A stretch of DNA of 64,000 nucleotides from Thalassospira lucentensis (GTDB lineage: Bacteria; Pseudomonadota; Alphaproteobacteria; Rhodospirillales; Thalassospiraceae). This document shows positions 9,414 through 41,751 of the stretch, piece by piece. The position numbers and the translations under genes are program-made. Under the pieces are notes generated by a model. It ran no database searches. It had not been told where the DNA came from and was given only the letters and a program-made list of their open reading frames with translations. Position 1 is the first letter of the stretch; each line of letters starts with the position of its first letter. Location: NCBI RefSeq assembly GCF_011806425.1, contig NZ_JAATOV010000002.1, positions 620,001 through 684,000 of the forward strand. The letters run 5' to 3'.

Positions 9414-9827
9414 CTAGCACATGGTATCAAATTTACCGTCTTTGCCCTTGCTCGATGAAACCGTGCAAGACCCGATCTGGCTGCCCGATGCATTGATGAT
9501 ATTAAGCTTGATCTCAGCACCATCCCCCTCAGACCACCAAATCGTTCCCGCAGAATCAGAACCAATAAGATTCAACGTGAATGGGGAACTTTTGGACACT
9601 GCCGAAACGATTTTCGGGTCATCGGCATTACTCAGGGCTTCCTTGACGGTAACAGCCGCTTTATCCGGTGACTTTTCACCCCATTCGCTTGGGCTCATCG
9701 GAACACCGTTCGGGGAATACACTTCAGCATGTGCCGACGTCATAAACGTCCCCAACAGCACGAATGCCATCATCACCGCCGGGAACAGAAAGTCCCGCAA
9801 GGCTTGGGAAAGATTGAGATAACTCAT
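9414..9827 (-). CDS. Small secreted protein of unknown function, possible paralogue of the 8787-9206 product
   Basis: 137 residues from MSYLNLSQALRD, with a hydrophobic signal segment ending SAHA. The ATG at 9827 has AAAGGAA spaced about 6 bases upstream, better than the ATG at 9833. The mature protein is polar and ends with a C-terminal cysteine pair (GSCTV and the final TMC), 16 residues apart. Family not recognised. It shares its layout with its neighbour, suggesting an old duplication. Its place between doeD and uehA may be incidental, although a periplasmic stress role would suit an osmolyte locus. Confidence 0.6.
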   Translation of the reverse strand: MSYLNLSQALRDFLFPAVMMAFVLLGTFMTSAHAEVYSPNGVPMSPSEWGEKSPDKAAVTVKEALSNADDPKIVSAVSKSSPFTLNLIGSDSAGTIWWSEGDGAEIKLNIINASGSQIGSCTVSSSKGKDGKFDTMC

Positions 9828-36604: not shown

Positions 36605-37702
36605 ATGCCCGCAACGCCCTATTACCTGATCGATAAGTCCAAGCTGTTGCGCAACATGGAAAAAATCGCCTATGTGCGCGAACAGTCCGGTGCCAAGGCG
36701 CTTTTGGCGTTAAAATGCTTTGCCACCTGGTCGGTGTTTGATTTCATGTCCGACTATATGGACGGCACCACGTCGTCCTCGCTTTACGAAGTCAAACTGG
36801 GCCGTGAAAAGTTCGGCAAGGAAACCCACGCCTATAGTGTGGCCTATTCCGATGGGGAAATTGCCGACGTCGTGCACAATGCCGACAAGATCATTTTCAA
36901 TTCCATCAGCCAGCTAACCCGGTTCAAGGACCAGGCATCCGGCATCGTGCGCGGCTTGCGCCTGAACCCACAGGTTTCCACCTCAAGCTTTGATCTGGCC
37001 GATCCGGCCCGTCCGTTTTCGCGTCTTGGCGAATGGGATGTGACCAAGGTCGAAGCGGTGATGGACCAAATTTCCGGCTTCATGATCCACAATAACTGCG
37101 AAAATGATGATTTCGATCTGTTTGATCGCATGTTGACCGACATCGAACAGAAATTCGGGTCCCTTCTGTCGCGTGTCGAATGGGTCAGCTTGGGCGGCGG
37201 CATTCACTTCACCGGCGAAAATTACCCGCTGGATGCCTTCTGCGCGCGGCTGAAATCCTTCTCAGAAAAATTTGGTGTGCAGGTATATCTCGAACCCGGC
37301 GAAGCCTCGATCACCAACAGCACGACCCTTGAGGTCACCGTGCTTGATACCCTGTTTAACGGCAAGAATTTGGCCATCGTCGATAGCTCGATCGAGGCCC
37401 ACATGCTTGACCTTTTGATTTACCGCGAAAATGCCAAGGTCCTGCCCAATACGGGCGATCATTCTTACATGATTTGTGGCAAATCCTGCCTCGCCGGTGA
37501 CGTTTTTGGCGAGTTTAATTTCGATCATGAAATCAAGGTCGGCGACCGCATCAGCATCCAGGATGCCGCGGGCTATACCATGGTCAAAAAGAACTGGTTT
37601 AACGGGGTCGGCATGCCGTCCATCGTTATCCGGGAATTGGACGGAACAACGCGCGTTATTCGCGAGTTTGACTTCACTGACTTCGTTTCAAGCCTTTCGT
37701 AA
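36605..37702 (+). CDS. nspC: Carboxynorspermidine/carboxyspermidine decarboxylase
   Basis: 365 residues of the alanine racemase-fold PLP decarboxylases. The PLP lysine is in LLALKCFATWSVF (about residue 40), GGGIHFTGENYPLDAF is the glycine loop, and LEPGEASITNS and MICGKSCLAGDVFGEF are the active-site Glu and Cys blocks. It removes CO2 from carboxy(nor)spermidine to give (nor)spermidine, the alternative polyamine route. The partner dehydrogenase is next in the operon. Confidence 0.93.
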   Translation: MPATPYYLIDKSKLLRNMEKIAYVREQSGAKALLALKCFATWSVFDFMSDYMDGTTSSSLYEVKLGREKFGKETHAYSVAYSDGEIADVVHNADKIIFNSISQLTRFKDQASGIVRGLRLNPQVSTSSFDLADPARPFSRLGEWDVTKVEAVMDQISGFMIHNNCENDDFDLFDRMLTDIEQKFGSLLSRVEWVSLGGGIHFTGENYPLDAFCARLKSFSEKFGVQVYLEPGEASITNSTTLEVTVLDTLFNGKNLAIVDSSIEAHMLDLLIYRENAKVLPNTGDHSYMICGKSCLAGDVFGEFNFDHEIKVGDRISIQDAAGYTMVKKNWFNGVGMPSIVIRELDGTTRVIREFDFTDFVSSLS

Positions 37703-37789
37703 TTTCAAAACGAAACGGCTGTTTTCATTGCGAACCGGGGTATGGCACTGCCTGCCCCCACCTCTCAAACAAGGGAGTTTTGGCCCGAC

Positions 37790-39031
37790 ATGAAAAAGAA
37801 TGTACTGATCATTGGCGCCGGTGGCGTCGCCCAGGTGGTTGCCCATAAATGCGCCCAGCATAATGACGTGTTTGGCGATCTTCATATCGCATCGCGCACG
37901 GTGTCAAAATGCCAGGACATCATCGACAGCATCCATGAAAAGAAAAACCTGAAACAGCAGGGCGTTCTTGAAGCACATGCGCTGGATGCCACCGATATCG
38001 ATGCAACCGCAGCCCTGATCGAAAAAACCGGAAGCCAGATCGTCATCAATGTCGGATCGCCGTTTCTCAATATGCCGGTCATGTCGGCCTGCATCAAAAC
38101 CGGTGCGGCCTATCTTGATACCGCCATCCATGAAGAACAGGACAAAATCTGCGAAACCCCGCCATGGTATGCCAACTATGAATGGAAACGCCGCGAAGAA
38201 TGCGAAAAGGCGGGTGTTACCGCCATTCTTGGCATCGGCTTTGATCCGGGCGTTGTAAACGCCTATGCCAAACTGGCCGTCGAAGATTACTTTGATAAAA
38301 TTGACTCGATCGATATCATCGACATCAATGCTGGCAGCCATGGCAAATATTTCGCCACCAACTTCGATCCGGAAATCAACTTCCGCGAATTTACCGGCAC
38401 GGTCTATTCTTGGCAGGACAGCAAATGGCAGTCCAACAAGATGTTCGAAATCAAGAAAATCTGGGACATGCCCGTCGTCGGCGAAAGCCAGACCTTCATG
38501 ACCGGCCATGACGAAGTCCACTCCCTGTCACAGAATTTGGACGTGCCAAATGTCCGCTTCTGGATGGGCTTTGGCGACCATTACGTCAATGTCTTCACGG
38601 TGCTCAACAGCATCGGTCTTCTGTCAGAACAGCCGGTCACAACCGCCGAAGGCCAGGAAGTCATTCCGCTGAAGGTCGTAAAAGCCTGCCTGCCAGATCC
38701 AAGCTCCCTTGCCCCGGAATATACCGGCAAAACCTGCATCGGTGATCTGGTCAAAGGGACCAAAGACGGCAAAGAAACCGAAGTCCTGATCTATAACGTC
38801 GCCGATCACAAAGACGCCTATAACGAAGTCGGTAGCCAAGGCATTTCCTACACCGCCGGTGTGCCGCCGGTCGCCGCTGCGATGCTAATCGCAACCGGCG
38901 AATGGGATGTGAAAAAAATGGCCAACGTCGAAGAATTGCCGGCCAAACCGTTCCTCAATCTTCTGAACGGCATGGGCCTTCCGACCCGCATCAAAGACGC
39001 CAATGGCGACCGCGCGCTCGACTTCAGCTAA
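37790..39031 (+). CDS. Carboxynorspermidine/carboxyspermidine dehydrogenase (saccharopine dehydrogenase family)
   Basis: 413 residues from MKKNVLIIGAGGVAQVVAHKC; this ATG places the Rossmann loop at the N-terminus, with GGGAG about 14 bases upstream. ILGIGFDPGVVNAYAKLA and FDPEINFREFTGTVY are family blocks. It condenses aspartate semialdehyde with a diamine using NADPH, making the substrate of NspC. The aspartate semialdehyde link also connects it metabolically with the ectoine pathway, although the loci are separate. Confidence 0.93.
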   Translation: MKKNVLIIGAGGVAQVVAHKCAQHNDVFGDLHIASRTVSKCQDIIDSIHEKKNLKQQGVLEAHALDATDIDATAALIEKTGSQIVINVGSPFLNMPVMSACIKTGAAYLDTAIHEEQDKICETPPWYANYEWKRREECEKAGVTAILGIGFDPGVVNAYAKLAVEDYFDKIDSIDIIDINAGSHGKYFATNFDPEINFREFTGTVYSWQDSKWQSNKMFEIKKIWDMPVVGESQTFMTGHDEVHSLSQNLDVPNVRFWMGFGDHYVNVFTVLNSIGLLSEQPVTTAEGQEVIPLKVVKACLPDPSSLAPEYTGKTCIGDLVKGTKDGKETEVLIYNVADHKDAYNEVGSQGISYTAGVPPVAAAMLIATGEWDVKKMANVEELPAKPFLNLLNGMGLPTRIKDANGDRALDFS

Positions 39032-39057
39032 GCGGTTTATGCGCTGATCTAAAACCT

Positions 39058-39095
39058 AAAATGGCGGACCACCGTAAAAGTGGCCCGCCATTTTT
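39058..39095 (+). terminator. Terminator of the nspC-dehydrogenase operon
   Basis: AAAATGGCGG pairs with CCGCCATTTTT, with an inner CAC/GTG pair around CGTAAAA. It lies 27 bases after the dehydrogenase stop. The right arm overlaps the left copy of a 14-bp direct repeat. Confidence 0.9.
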
Positions 39096-39099
39096 ATGT
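39086..39099 (+). repeat. Left direct repeat CGCCATTTTTATGT of the NYN island
   Basis: The same 14-mer occurs at 40544-40557. The two copies bracket the palindromes, structured RNA and NYN gene. It lies in the right arm and T-run of the host terminator. Confidence 0.65.
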
Positions 39100-39270
39100 T
39101 TGAATTTCGCGCATCAACGCGAGAACGATCACTAAGCCGCATTTCCAGATGACGATGGCCCTGCTTGTCGCAGGCTTTATCATGTCCAGTTGAAATTTAC
39201 GGTAAGCGTACAGCCTAATCTGCAATGATAGGGTCACAGAATGGCTTGTTTGCCCTGAACGACAATCTTG

Positions 39271-39284
39271 GTATCACGTGATAC
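39271..39284. repeat. Perfect 14-bp palindrome in the NYN island
   Basis: GTATCACGTGATAC is its own reverse complement. It is the first of three palindromes within 116 bases. Confidence 0.6.
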
Positions 39285-39289
39285 TAGAT

Positions 39290-39322
39290 GTACGGACACG
39301 GTCAATTTGACCGGCGCCGTAC
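39290..39322. repeat. Nested inverted repeat in the NYN island
   Basis: GTACGG...CCGTAC forms the outer arms and CGGTCAA/TTGACCG (one central T) the inner arms, separated by ACA and GCG bulges. It could be a bipartite protein-binding site or a cruciform/recombination site. Confidence 0.6.
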
Positions 39323-39366
39323 GTTACATGAAGAAAATCATGTTTAAGCTGATCAAGGATGTTCAA

Positions 39367-39386
39367 ATTTGCAACCGGTTGCAAAT
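39367..39386. promoter_or_regulatory. Perfect 20-bp palindrome of LacI/GalR-operator form
   Basis: ATTTGCAACCGGTTGCAAAT is an exact palindrome with the central CG and TTGCAA arms typical of LacI/GalR operators. No LacI-type gene is adjacent. It lies about 370 bases upstream of the NYN gene. Confidence 0.6.
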
Positions 39387-39626
39387 CGCACCTTACATAA
39401 TATCTAGTGAAATCGTATTTGCAGAATTTGCGCAATGCGCGTGCAATTTGCGGCCTGATTTTCGTGCGAAAAAGTGAGACGTTTTGTGTGTGCACTCTGT
39501 GAACGAAATTCTACTCACAAAAACGTGCAGTGTTTGTAATACAAAAATGTATTGCTTCAGTACTAAATTTATTTGTATAACAAGTTTACAAAAGATGGGA
39601 ACAACACCACCTTTTACACAGATAGC

Positions 39627-39696
39627 CCCCTTGGCCGTCCGTAGCCCCCGTGAGAACGGATTAATAGCAGGCTACCGACCCCAAGGGGTTTTTTTT
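39627..39696 (+). ncRNA. Structured RNA with intrinsic terminator upstream of the NYN gene
   Basis: The outer stem is CCCCTTGG (39627-39634) with CCAAGGGG (39681-39688). Inside it are a GTC/GAC step, then GTAGCC (39641-39646) with GGCTAC (39670-39675). A small hairpin CCGT-GAGA-ACGG sits at 39648-39659, leaving ATTAATAGCA single-stranded. Eight T follow at 39689-39696. The NYN start is 44 bases further on. It may be a free small RNA or an attenuator controlling the gene. No known riboswitch class is recognised. Confidence 0.6.
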
Positions 39697-39739
39697 GTCT
39701 TTTTCTATAATTTAAAAAATAAAATCATTGGGGAGAAGT

Positions 39740-40468
39740 ATGCAGCGCATGGCAATTATGATTGACGGGGCGTTCTTTCTGAAACGCTTCCCTGTTGTCT
39801 TCCCAAATAAGGATGCGCGTGACCCTGAAGTGGTTGCAGAGACTCTTTTCCGAATGGCAATCTCTCACCTTAAGCCAAAAAACCCCAACGCTAAGCGTTC
39901 CGATCTCTACCGCATTTTCTTTTACGATTGTCCGCCACTAACAAAGCGTTTGCATACGCCAATTGAAAAGAAAGTAATCAACTTTGAGAAATCAGATGAG
40001 GCGATTTTCCGAAACGCACTACATCTTAACCTGACCAAGCGCAGAAAAGTTGCCCTTAGATTGGGGCATTTGAACGACAAGAATGCAAATTGGTCATTGC
40101 GGCCGCGTGTGATGCAGGATCTGATAAAGGGCAAACGTAAATGGGACGAACTTGCCGATCATGATTTCGTCTATACGGCCAAGCAAACTGGTGTTGATAT
40201 GCGGATTGGTGTGGATATCACACAACTCTCTCAGAAGCGTCTGATCGACCAAGTTGTTTTGGTCGCAGGAGACAGCGACTTCGTGCCAGCAGCAAAACTG
40301 GCTCGTAGAGAGGGCGTTGATTTTATTCTTGACCCAATGTGGAACCATATCCATCCGGATTTACATACACATATTGATGGATTGAGATCGATGACCCGCA
40401 ATCCGGAAATGGTTGTGAATGAAGCAGAAGCGCAAAAGCAGGTCGTTGACGATCTAGATATTGAATAA
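39740..40468 (+). CDS. NYN domain (PIN-like) nuclease family protein
   Basis: 242 residues from MQRMAIMIDGAFF, start set by GGGGAGAA 4-10 bases upstream. The acidic metal site of NYN/LabA-type PIN folds is visible: AIMIDGAFFLKRF (Asp near residue 8), TGVDMRIGVDITQLS, and VLVAGDSDFVPAAKLARREG. This suggests a metal-dependent RNase. The C-terminus is acidic. The gene sits alone with the structured RNA in a small AT-rich island flanked by direct repeats, compatible with a defence, toxin or RNA-processing cassette. Confidence 0.85.
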   Translation: MQRMAIMIDGAFFLKRFPVVFPNKDARDPEVVAETLFRMAISHLKPKNPNAKRSDLYRIFFYDCPPLTKRLHTPIEKKVINFEKSDEAIFRNALHLNLTKRRKVALRLGHLNDKNANWSLRPRVMQDLIKGKRKWDELADHDFVYTAKQTGVDMRIGVDITQLSQKRLIDQVVLVAGDSDFVPAAKLARREGVDFILDPMWNHIHPDLHTHIDGLRSMTRNPEMVVNEAEAQKQVVDDLDIE

Positions 40469-40543
40469 CTTCCAGCAAAAACAGTATAGGAAAGTCAAGT
40501 AAGGCTGCGACTGTCAAAAAATGTGCACCAGCTTAAAGCTTAG

Positions 40544-40557
40544 CGCCATTTTTATGT
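40544..40557 (+). repeat. Right direct repeat CGCCATTTTTATGT of the NYN island
   Basis: Identical to 39086-39099, 76 bases after the NYN stop. Host-like GC-rich sequence and the MFS gene resume directly afterwards. Confidence 0.65.
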
Positions 40558-40590
40558 CCGCAGGGTGCGTCGGAATACCGGGGGTCTTGC

Positions 40591-41751
40591 TCAACCACGC
40601 TTCCACATGACGATGGCCGCCATCGCGACAAACACCGCACCGACCCCGGTCACCATGGCATAGCCCGCCATGTCATAAATCGGCCCCATGATCATCGGTC
40701 CGGCAAACACCGCCGAATAGGTCGCTGCACTATTCAGCCCCATCACCGCCCCGCGTGCTTCGGATGCCTGCCGGTTCAGCGACACCACCAACGCATTCAG
40801 GCCAAGCTGGTTTAGCATGCCCCACATCGCGGTTCCGGCCAGCGCGGTGATCTGACTTTGCAGGGTCAATCCCCACGTGCCATAGCTTGTGGCAATCGCC
40901 AGCAGCACGAGGCACAAATACCCCCGGGTGATTTTGGGCGAAATCATGCCCAGCACAAACCCCATCACCCCAAACCCGACCCCATAGGCCAGAACGAAAA
41001 TCCCGCTGCCTTGCGCGGTCAGGTCAAAGGCCGCGCGCACCCCCACCCCGAAAAAGGCAAAGCTTCCGTAAAACGCGGTCATAAAGGCCAGCATCACCGC
41101 CAAAAGCTGCCAAACACCGGGCAGCATAATCGCGCGGATCGGCGATGTGCGCGTGCTTTTCCCGCCGCGCAAATCGGCCAAAAACGCCATCAACACCCCA
41201 GCAACCACGACCGACAATCCCGCCATCAGGAAGTAAACCATCCGCCAGCCAAAATGCTCGGTAATGAACGCTGCCGCCGGAACCGCCACCACCAACGATA
41301 ACGCCCAGCCGGTCAACACCACGCCAAGCCGCGCGGCTTCGCGGCCTTTGGGTGCTGTCGCGGTTGCCGTGGCATAGGACCCGGGCAATAAAATCCCCAC
41401 CGCCACACCGGCCATCGCCTGCGACAGACACAGCCATATCCAATGCTGGCTCAGCCCGCTTGAAACCTGTGCCACCGCCAGCAAAATTGCCGCACCACCC
41501 AACACCCGGCCGACCGGCATCCGGTCAATCATCCCCGCCAAGGTCAGAGCCGAAATCGCGGTTGCCGCGCCAAACGCCGAAATCGCCCACGCCACGTGAT
41601 AGGTCTCGGTCGCAAGGCTAAAGGCGACCTCTGACAAGATCGGGCTTAAAACAAATGAATTTGCCCCCACAAGCAACACCGCCCCCAAAAGGGACAATAC
41701 TTTCACCTGGGCAATGGCATTTGGATTTTCGTCAGATGGGTGATGGCTCAT
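40591..41751 (-). CDS. MFS transporter (12-helix drug/sugar efflux type)
   Basis: 386 residues, about 12 hydrophobic helices. The A-motif region between helices 2 and 3 is present as AGMIDRMPVGRVLGG, and PGSYATATATAPKGREAARLG lies after helix 4. Small size and motif pattern fit a drug:H+ antiporter-1 type exporter; the substrate is unknown. It is transcribed away from the LacI gene downstream. Confidence 0.85.
   Translation of the reverse strand: MSHHPSDENPNAIAQVKVLSLLGAVLLVGANSFVLSPILSEVAFSLATETYHVAWAISAFGAATAISALTLAGMIDRMPVGRVLGGAAILLAVAQVSSGLSQHWIWLCLSQAMAGVAVGILLPGSYATATATAPKGREAARLGVVLTGWALSLVVAVPAAAFITEHFGWRMVYFLMAGLSVVVAGVLMAFLADLRGGKSTRTSPIRAIMLPGVWQLLAVMLAFMTAFYGSFAFFGVGVRAAFDLTAQGSGIFVLAYGVGFGVMGFVLGMISPKITRGYLCLVLLAIATSYGTWGLTLQSQITALAGTAMWGMLNQLGLNALVVSLNRQASEARGAVMGLNSAATYSAVFAGPMIMGPIYDMAGYAMVTGVGAVFVAMAAIVMWKRG

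Follow-up and report, generated by a model that had tools for sequence, protein, structure and literature searches.

A covarying hairpin RNA upstream of an NYN nuclease in a sporadic mobile unit of Thalassospira, a candidate RNA-antitoxin module

To our knowledge, systems in which an RNA acts as the antitoxin are few (ToxIN, CptIN, TenpIN, AvcID and AbiF). According to PMC12373285, the abiF RNA down-regulates its toxin gene and acts by a tight interaction with the protein, and the pair occurs in prophages. In the part of PMC3475682 that deals with phage PhiTE, the phage evades ToxIN with pseudo-ToxI, a phage-borne mimic of the antitoxin. A CRISPR-associated NYN ribonuclease of Bacteroides fragilis, as portrayed in passages of PMC11346440, has three conserved aspartates, and its closest folds are 2QIP and 6FDL. 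Here we describe a locus in a 64,000-nt stretch of the Thalassospira lucentensis genome (contig NZ_JAATOV010000002.1, positions 620,001 to 684,000; hereafter the window), in which a structured RNA (39622..39697, + strand) precedes a gene for a 242-aa NYN-domain nuclease of the phrog_5783 family (39740..40468, + strand). The initial annotation, made from the letters of the window, had read the DNA around this pair as a compact island of mobile appearance and a candidate defence or toxin-antitoxin unit. We found that the island is a mobile unit, sporadic in the genus, and that its hairpin belongs to a covarying RNA class directly upstream of NYN homologues; a predicted role in defence or as a toxin-antitoxin pair is consistent with the data. 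The likeliest reading of the locus, to which we give a little less than an even chance, is that of a passively mobile cassette with a type III-like defence module, in which an RNA antitoxin would be paired with an NYN RNase.

The window RNA begins with 5' AUAG, followed by an outer stem (39627-39634 paired with 39681-39688), an internal loop, an inner stem with its hairpin and a U-tract; its placement rests on the fold and on a covariance match, and its 5' end was drawn from relatives. The segment 39590-39700 folds at -39.8 kcal/mol (z -4.65) and 0 of 200 shuffles folded equally well, in agreement with the structured RNA that the initial annotation had placed in the island. Upstream of it, a small hairpin (39594..39615, + strand; folding, by eye) pairs better in another genome of the genus, G003, than in the window. 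For a comparison across relatives, we took the best 80 of at least 554 NYN relatives confirmed in genome contigs (one genome per species) and the best 80 of 163 in viral contigs; 158 of these 160 loci had at least 150 nt upstream, and 134 were left after near-identical ones were removed. Covariance model R1 was seeded with 42 loci chosen by a pattern requiring parts of the internal loop (GUA and CGA), the window not among them, and was run over 90 and 80 sources. It matched the window at 39626-39694 (31.5 bits, E 6.5e-6), G003 (E 3.2e-6) and the relative G052 (E 0.013). A match lay directly upstream of NYN and co-oriented with it in 111 of the 134 loci at E<=1 and in 102 at E<=0.01 (69 and 60, respectively, of the 92 non-seed loci). 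Thus linked, the one nuclease plus one RNA that had been named as the island's cargo are conserved as a pair across phyla.

The proposed structure was borne out by covariation. Twelve of 15 proposed pairs were changed on both sides in the seed alignment, with 106 such cells compared to 32.6 (standard deviation 5.6) after shuffling and at most 36 when the alignment was slid; the selection pattern had fixed letters in just three loop-adjacent pairs. In alignment A7, which holds 91 matches fitted to the structure, we counted 290 cells changed on both sides compared to 71.6 (standard deviation 9.4) in shuffles, while the number of pairs so changed, 15, was also attained in 37/500 shuffles. In 72 of the 91 A7 rows (33/33 seeds, by selection, and 39/58 non-seeds), the internal loop combines a 5' GUA with a 3' GA; its counterpart in the window and G003 is CCGUCC/CGACC, in which a 3-bp helix can form. 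The GUA/GA loop resembles the sarcin-ricin loop of 23S rRNA; mimicry of that loop was considered and is not supported, with the window, G003 and G052 all having a loop other than GUA/GA, and an rRNA pattern for the sarcin-ricin loop was not found in the window's assembly. A known Rfam RNA as the identity of the hairpin is ruled out by scans of Rfam 15, in which no family reached its gathering score in the window, 39000-40700 gave no convincing match at relaxed E, and none of ten gathering matches in 17 related loci fell at the RNA before NYN. Tandem copies were likewise absent: no locus in the R1 tables had two matches before NYN, and none were seen at the window RNA. At a Kallipyga locus (L154), the sole R1 match (L154:4941-4997) lies downstream of NYN and is followed after 78 nt by the ATG of an open reading frame (ORF) of 368 aa, judged by eye to resemble a tyrosine integrase. 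Among 74 genomes with an NYN profile match, we inspected the upstream DNA of 14 loci: model R2 matched upstream of NYN in L293-L296 and not in L290, L291, L292 and L297, where T-run hairpins were seen by eye; no T-run hairpin was seen by eye upstream in L300-L303, which are more distant relatives; and L298 and L305 had partial NYN matches only and were uninformative.

The protein encoded downstream is a predicted RNase of PIN-like type, as judged from its sequence and modelled fold. Pfam supports the NYN nuclease of the initial annotation well above the curated cut-off (PF01936, 34 bits against 24.2, E 4.9e-8), and at E<=1 reported besides NYN only a sub-threshold TetR_C_35. The NCBIfam search returned NYN models, the PADLOC NYN model PDLC01154 matched residues 146-194 (E 3.3e-6), and phrog_5783, a PHROGs entry of unknown function, matched over nearly the full length (E 1.6e-87). 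D9, D153 and D178 are invariant in 6/6 aligned NYN sequences, and their assignment as a catalytic triad is by motif rather than by superposition. The NYN fold is present in the predicted structure model, and the closest folds are 2QIP and 6FDL; the top matches of Foldseek taken alone were meaningless.

We examined the DNA in front of the RNA for signals of transcription. Position -4 relative to the model start is an A in 84% of 113 RNAs, and a sigma-70 pattern starting at that A scored at least 9/12 in 33/113 and at least 10/12 in 17/113, compared to 1.9% and 0.2% at control positions 60-200 nt upstream; the mean sigma-70 score peaks at the offset that places the start at A -4. The outer stem and U-tract form a terminator between the RNA and the NYN gene, such that the RNA itself is the terminator. 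Since the predicted start lies at the stem base and the U-tract follows the outer stem, the transcript would consist of the hairpin alone.

The RNA also occurs where NYN is broken or undetected. We ran R2 over 385 alphaproteobacterial genomes and obtained matches at E<=0.01 in 17 (20 rows), of which 5 rows in 5 genomes reached at least 38 bits; the remaining 15, of 20-30 bits and 25-58 nt, were taken for plain terminators and set aside unread. NYN adjoins the RNA in four of these five genomes, including G132, where it is in two pieces with an in-frame TGA, and the fifth, G461, has no NYN match in its genome. Pattern scans of viral contigs gave at least 130 places in 128 loci, of which 112 failed the filter for a stem and a T-run and were dropped (in one of these, L344, NYN lies 35 nt downstream). 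Among the matches listed, NYN was found 30-95 nt downstream in 11 of the 18 rows kept by the filter or by a second pattern, and was not detected for the other seven (six places: L323, L342, L350, L378, L418 and L445); of these, L350 stops shortly past the RNA, and L323 and L378 are possibly plain terminators. In L418, an integrase-like ORF follows the RNA at a distance of about 0.6 kb. In Escherichia coli, the form of the RNA found in the lambda-like Escherichia phage ev099 is present in 274/5426 genomes, with the RNA and NYN segment covered by at least 80% in 73 and in part in 201; many are O157:H7, and in the one O157:H7 record inspected NYN was cut to 129 aa. An NYN match was present in 23/23 viral stretches with the exact core of the ev099-type RNA, of which 18 had an NYN of at least 256 aa and five only its first 114-118 aa, some at the end of a stretch.

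Two phages carry the RNA without a detectable nuclease. A 72-nt segment of ev099 matched nine phage records, seven of them NYN-positive, and the remaining two were Escherichia phage BSBP01 and Shigella phage vB_Shi_2KOFFS, Chaseviridae that we take to be virulent. Neither is among the 15 of 50,697 phage records in which tblastn detected NYN. The likeness in these two phages extends from ACCAAGCCC, the predicted transcription start, into the U-tract and is broken in the internal loop by a one-base gap. Of 40 listed records that share this region (GenBank and RefSeq duplicates counted; six further records lie outside the listing), 36 match only from base 61-73 on, that is, the flank without the RNA. 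The slot was inspected in two of these relatives. In phage DE15 it (L482:305-401) holds a tRNA-Leu called by ARAGORN, and in phage Mangalitsa it holds a sequence that is similar to the DE15 tRNA and was not called by ARAGORN; therefore the RNA seems to have replaced a phage tRNA gene in the two Chaseviridae phages. The occupants of this slot, tRNA-Leu in DE15 and the NYN-associated RNA, look like a swap between two possible anti-defence RNAs.

To assess mobility, we compared the site in 29 genomes of the genus, which are part of a wider sample of 100 relatives. The saccharopine-dehydrogenase-like gene on the left flank (37742..39031, + strand; Pfam PF03435/PF16653) was matched in 29/29 genus genomes, and the MFS transporter gene on the right (40591..41751, - strand; Pfam PF07690) has an orthologue in ten, the window counted as one of them (83-89% identity in the others). 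The initial annotation had called for an empty site at the junction of the nspC operon and the MFS gene, and such a site was found in seven of the ten MFS-bearing genomes (G014, G008, G004, G017, G016, G012 and G013), where the gene matches are 105-199 bp apart, although the whole 14-mer repeat was there in G008 alone. Two more (G002 and G022) have other insertions, with the flanking genes about 2.3 and 8.1 kb apart and other genes between them. In G002, the right end of the insertion (L070:3012-3305) holds a decayed second copy of the 3' portion of the saccharopine-dehydrogenase-like gene, another case of flank duplication, and the insertion's 581-aa hydrophobic ORF had no match in the libraries searched (NCBIfam, PADLOC and PHROGs).

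The initial annotation had also proposed a search for the island at other terminators; in one other of the 29 genomes, G003, the unit lies at a second location, downstream of gyrB. An NYN match at E<=0.001 was obtained in 8/100 relatives, the window genome counted, and within the genus only in the window genome and G003, whose NYN is 72% identical to that of the window. Homology between the two units starts at about 39166, directly after the left repeat copy, and spans a non-coding palindrome-rich part (39166..39600), the RNA and NYN. The palindromic part is 76% alike over 205-456 of the 460-nt query; among 59 other relatives it was matched in G003 only, besides a 48-nt match in G005, and it had no match in the plasmids searched. 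Palindromes reported within the island do exist (e.g., 39367-39386), and two of them, GTATCACGTGATAC and ATTTGCAACCGGTTGCAAAT (39272-39285 and 39367-39386), are partly kept in G003 and raise the question of an operator or recombination site. The ORF list likewise agrees with the reported lack of an integrase: it has no ORF of integrase size between the repeat copies, and no integrase or transposase ORF there. In G003, a 57-bp sequence downstream of gyrB (L069:6878-6934) has repeats of about 21 bp that by eye look like TnsB sites; several genomes of the genus have it after gyrB, the DNA beyond it differing among them, and in G003 13 bp of it recur at 9481-9493. This sequence may mark one end of a Tn7-like element that lacks a transposase and carries the NYN unit. 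A 321-aa ORF beside the G003 NYN (L069:8289-9254), a possible second cargo gene, has a partial match to phrog_17908 (E 1.1e-17) and none in NCBIfam or PADLOC, the other two libraries searched.

The insertion lies behind a host polyamine operon that includes an Orn/DAP/Arg decarboxylase-type gene, the nspC of the initial annotation (36605..37702, + strand; Pfam PF00278), together with the saccharopine-dehydrogenase-like gene, and ends in a terminator hairpin (39058..39094, + strand), similar hairpins being present in relatives. This inverted repeat fits the earlier description of the first repeat copy as the right arm of the operon terminator, the right arm opening the left copy. The 14-bp direct repeat itself, CGCCATTTTTATGT, is exact at 39086-39099 and 40544-40557, as had been reported, with no other exact copy in the window; allowing up to two mismatches, there were four matches compared to 0.87 expected, a number reached in 2/100 shuffles. 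A second repeat of 29 nt (39132-39160 and 40590-40618, 79% alike) has the same spacing as the 14-mers, 1458, and the repeat is therefore beyond chance; between the two blocks the copies are poorly alike. The last codons of the MFS gene sit in the right copy, and the left copy has a displaced duplicate of them. G008, with a single copy of the stretch from the 14-mer to the MFS end, matches both ends of the duplication, and the left copy tracks it, with gaps, all the way between the terminator arm and the 3' end of the MFS gene; in the 29-nt block the left copy differs from G008 at three positions and the right copy at four (counted by eye). The flanking duplication is therefore about 75 bp long, diverged, with a left copy at 39086..39160 and a right copy joined to the MFS gene at 40544..40618. 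Thus, the 14-mers are real but are the left end of a longer repeat that includes the MFS 3' end. The AT-rich sequence also lies where it had been placed, with a GC dip to 41-46% between the copies and flanks of about 50-62%. A chance likeness of terminators as the source of the repeat is ruled out by the equal spacing of the second repeat and by the empty site. At about 75 bp, the duplication seems too long for the target-site duplication of a transposase and would better fit recombination through homologous flanks; the host flank could have been duplicated by a circle that integrated via a homologous flank, followed by divergence.

Relatives of the nuclease are widespread on other mobile DNA. 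In addition to the 15 phage records, tblastn detected NYN in 164/72,556 plasmids, of which 134 were from Campylobacter. Among the genome contigs, the matches listed span Proteobacteria, Acidobacteria, Bacteroidota, Planctomycetes, Verrucomicrobia, Bacillota, Lentisphaerae and others, according to record titles. We read the annotated context in two of the positive phages and two of the plasmids. In ev099, the pair, with an NYN 43% identical to that of the window, lies between a cI-type repressor and N; in Moraxella phage Mcat4 it lies between terminase and structural genes; in Campylobacter jejuni pTet it is beside a regulator and mobP1; and in Xanthomonas pXCM49 it is among transfer genes. A tRNA or tmRNA was within about 650 bp upstream of NYN in 7/60 genome loci (L082, L087, L088, L097, L099, L117 and L136).

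The RNA has its own promoter and terminator, is kept where NYN is cut or missing and stands alone in phages, and is therefore antitoxin-like. In the module that we favour, the promoter would start transcription at the hairpin base (the A at -4 of the stem), and the hairpin with its own terminal U-tract would make up the whole of a small RNA of about 60-75 nt. Most transcripts would end at the U-tract, yielding RNA in excess, while occasional read-through would yield the PIN-like NYN RNase, which the RNA may bind via its internal and apical loops and keep inactive. Upon phage infection, loss or displacement of the RNA could free the nuclease, whose cleavage of RNA would halt either cell or phage in the manner of type III toxin-antitoxin and abortive infection systems, and virulent phages could evade it by carrying the RNA alone. 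Phages may, then, be able to block an RNA-controlled NYN toxin. The wider proposal, of a widespread RNA-antitoxin/NYN anti-phage system, spread over many bacterial phyla on prophages, plasmids and small islands, in which one hairpin is transcript, terminator and inhibitor and whose RNA virulent Chaseviridae captured as a decoy in a tRNA slot, is a possibility that we advance tentatively.

Several observations weigh against the antitoxin interpretation. The window's own promoter is weak (7/12), and the promoter offset was chosen after the upstream nucleotide profile had been seen. The RNA is a single hairpin, without the tandem repeats of type III antitoxins; in the window, G003 and G052 its loop sequence is able to close into a 3-bp helix; loop conservation in the seeds is by choice, since the seed pattern demands GUA and CGA; and 23/134 loci have no model match upstream of NYN. 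At the Kallipyga locus, R1 leaves the hairpin in front of NYN unmatched and has its only match before the integrase-like gene, an arrangement that an antitoxin role does not predict. Neither the ev099-type RNA nor the Campylobacter RNA is matched by R2 at E<=1; what ties both to the window RNA is limited to the homology of their NYN proteins, their position and their layout, and the ev099-type RNA would be a divergent form or a replacement. The window RNA, one Pseudomonas RNA and one Campylobacter RNA had no match in phages. BSBP01 and vB_Shi_2KOFFS are close relatives, with a likeness of about 91-98% over the larger pieces that they share in the region, and so probably represent one acquisition; their copy, with its 1-nt deletion, could serve only as a terminator. 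Similarly, the O157:H7 count amounts to few events, because this is a clonal group.

We considered that the hairpin might instead be a cis-acting attenuator, a regulatory terminator in the NYN leader that NYN or another factor would bind or cut, thereby setting read-through, with no role in trans. This is the main rival, and we think it unlikely, if deserving of serious weight. The outer stem and U-tract do form a terminator close 5' of NYN, and the sole match in L154 precedes an integrase-like gene, i.e., another leader. However, because the predicted start lies at the stem base there is no upstream room for an antiterminator, and the RNA occurs without an NYN match in the two Chaseviridae phages, in G461 and in viral contigs L342, L418 and L445. 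An active ribonucleoprotein, in which the RNA would position or activate the nuclease as a guide or cofactor, strikes us as improbable: conservation of the internal loop beyond pairing (GUA and GA in 39/58 non-seed rows) does suggest a specific contact, but there is no evident variable guide-like segment, and retention of the RNA where NYN is cut or missing and its presence alone in phages favour inhibition. We give very little credence to an ordinary moron layout, with NYN as cargo under its own promoter and the hairpin as a mere terminator without further sequence function, even though morons commonly bring their own promoter and terminator and the unit sits at gene boundaries in the window and Mcat4, since a plain terminator has no need of a covarying inner stem and internal loop, and one placed between promoter and gene would silence the gene.

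If the antitoxin interpretation is true, the NYN unit joins the RNA-antitoxin systems with a different nuclease fold and a wide spread, adds an RNA class unmatched by Rfam 15 in the loci scanned, and gives the anonymous phrog_5783 a role; the lambda-like coliphages offer a ready test ground, with a possible natural phage decoy. A search of open-licence PMC papers found no description of an RNA-NYN pair, and one may exist elsewhere. Lambda rexAB, whose slot between the cI-type repressor and N is the one that NYN occupies in ev099, is a superinfection exclusion system with proteins unrelated to NYN and no known RNA partner. The fold of ToxN also differs from the NYN fold, and Pfam at E<=1, a comparison by sequence, shows no domain of the ToxN/AbiQ kind in the window protein. 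The entries phrog_5783 and PDLC01154 match the window NYN and, in the search results, name no RNA partner. The B. fragilis NYN is like ours in its domain, three aspartates and closest folds, but is tied to crRNA (CRISPR RNA) maturation beside a type III CRISPR system, and the passages of PMC11346440 concerned give it no partner RNA of its own. AbiF (Abi_2, RF03085) is likewise a prophage-borne toxin gene preceded by a structured RNA (PMC12373285). It has a HEPN-type toxin, two RNA motifs and a separate terminator, whereas the NYN unit has an NYN/PIN-like nuclease and a single terminator-hairpin; Abi_2/HEPN was absent from the Pfam and NCBIfam results on the NYN protein, and RF03085 had no gathering-score match in the window or at the RNA of 17 related loci. 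With type III ToxIN, as presented in the section of PMC3475682 cited above, the unit shares an RNA upstream of the toxin, a terminator between the two and a phage-borne form of the RNA, but where ToxIN has a ToxI repeat array that gives 36-nt pseudoknots, the NYN unit has one hairpin and an NYN protein.
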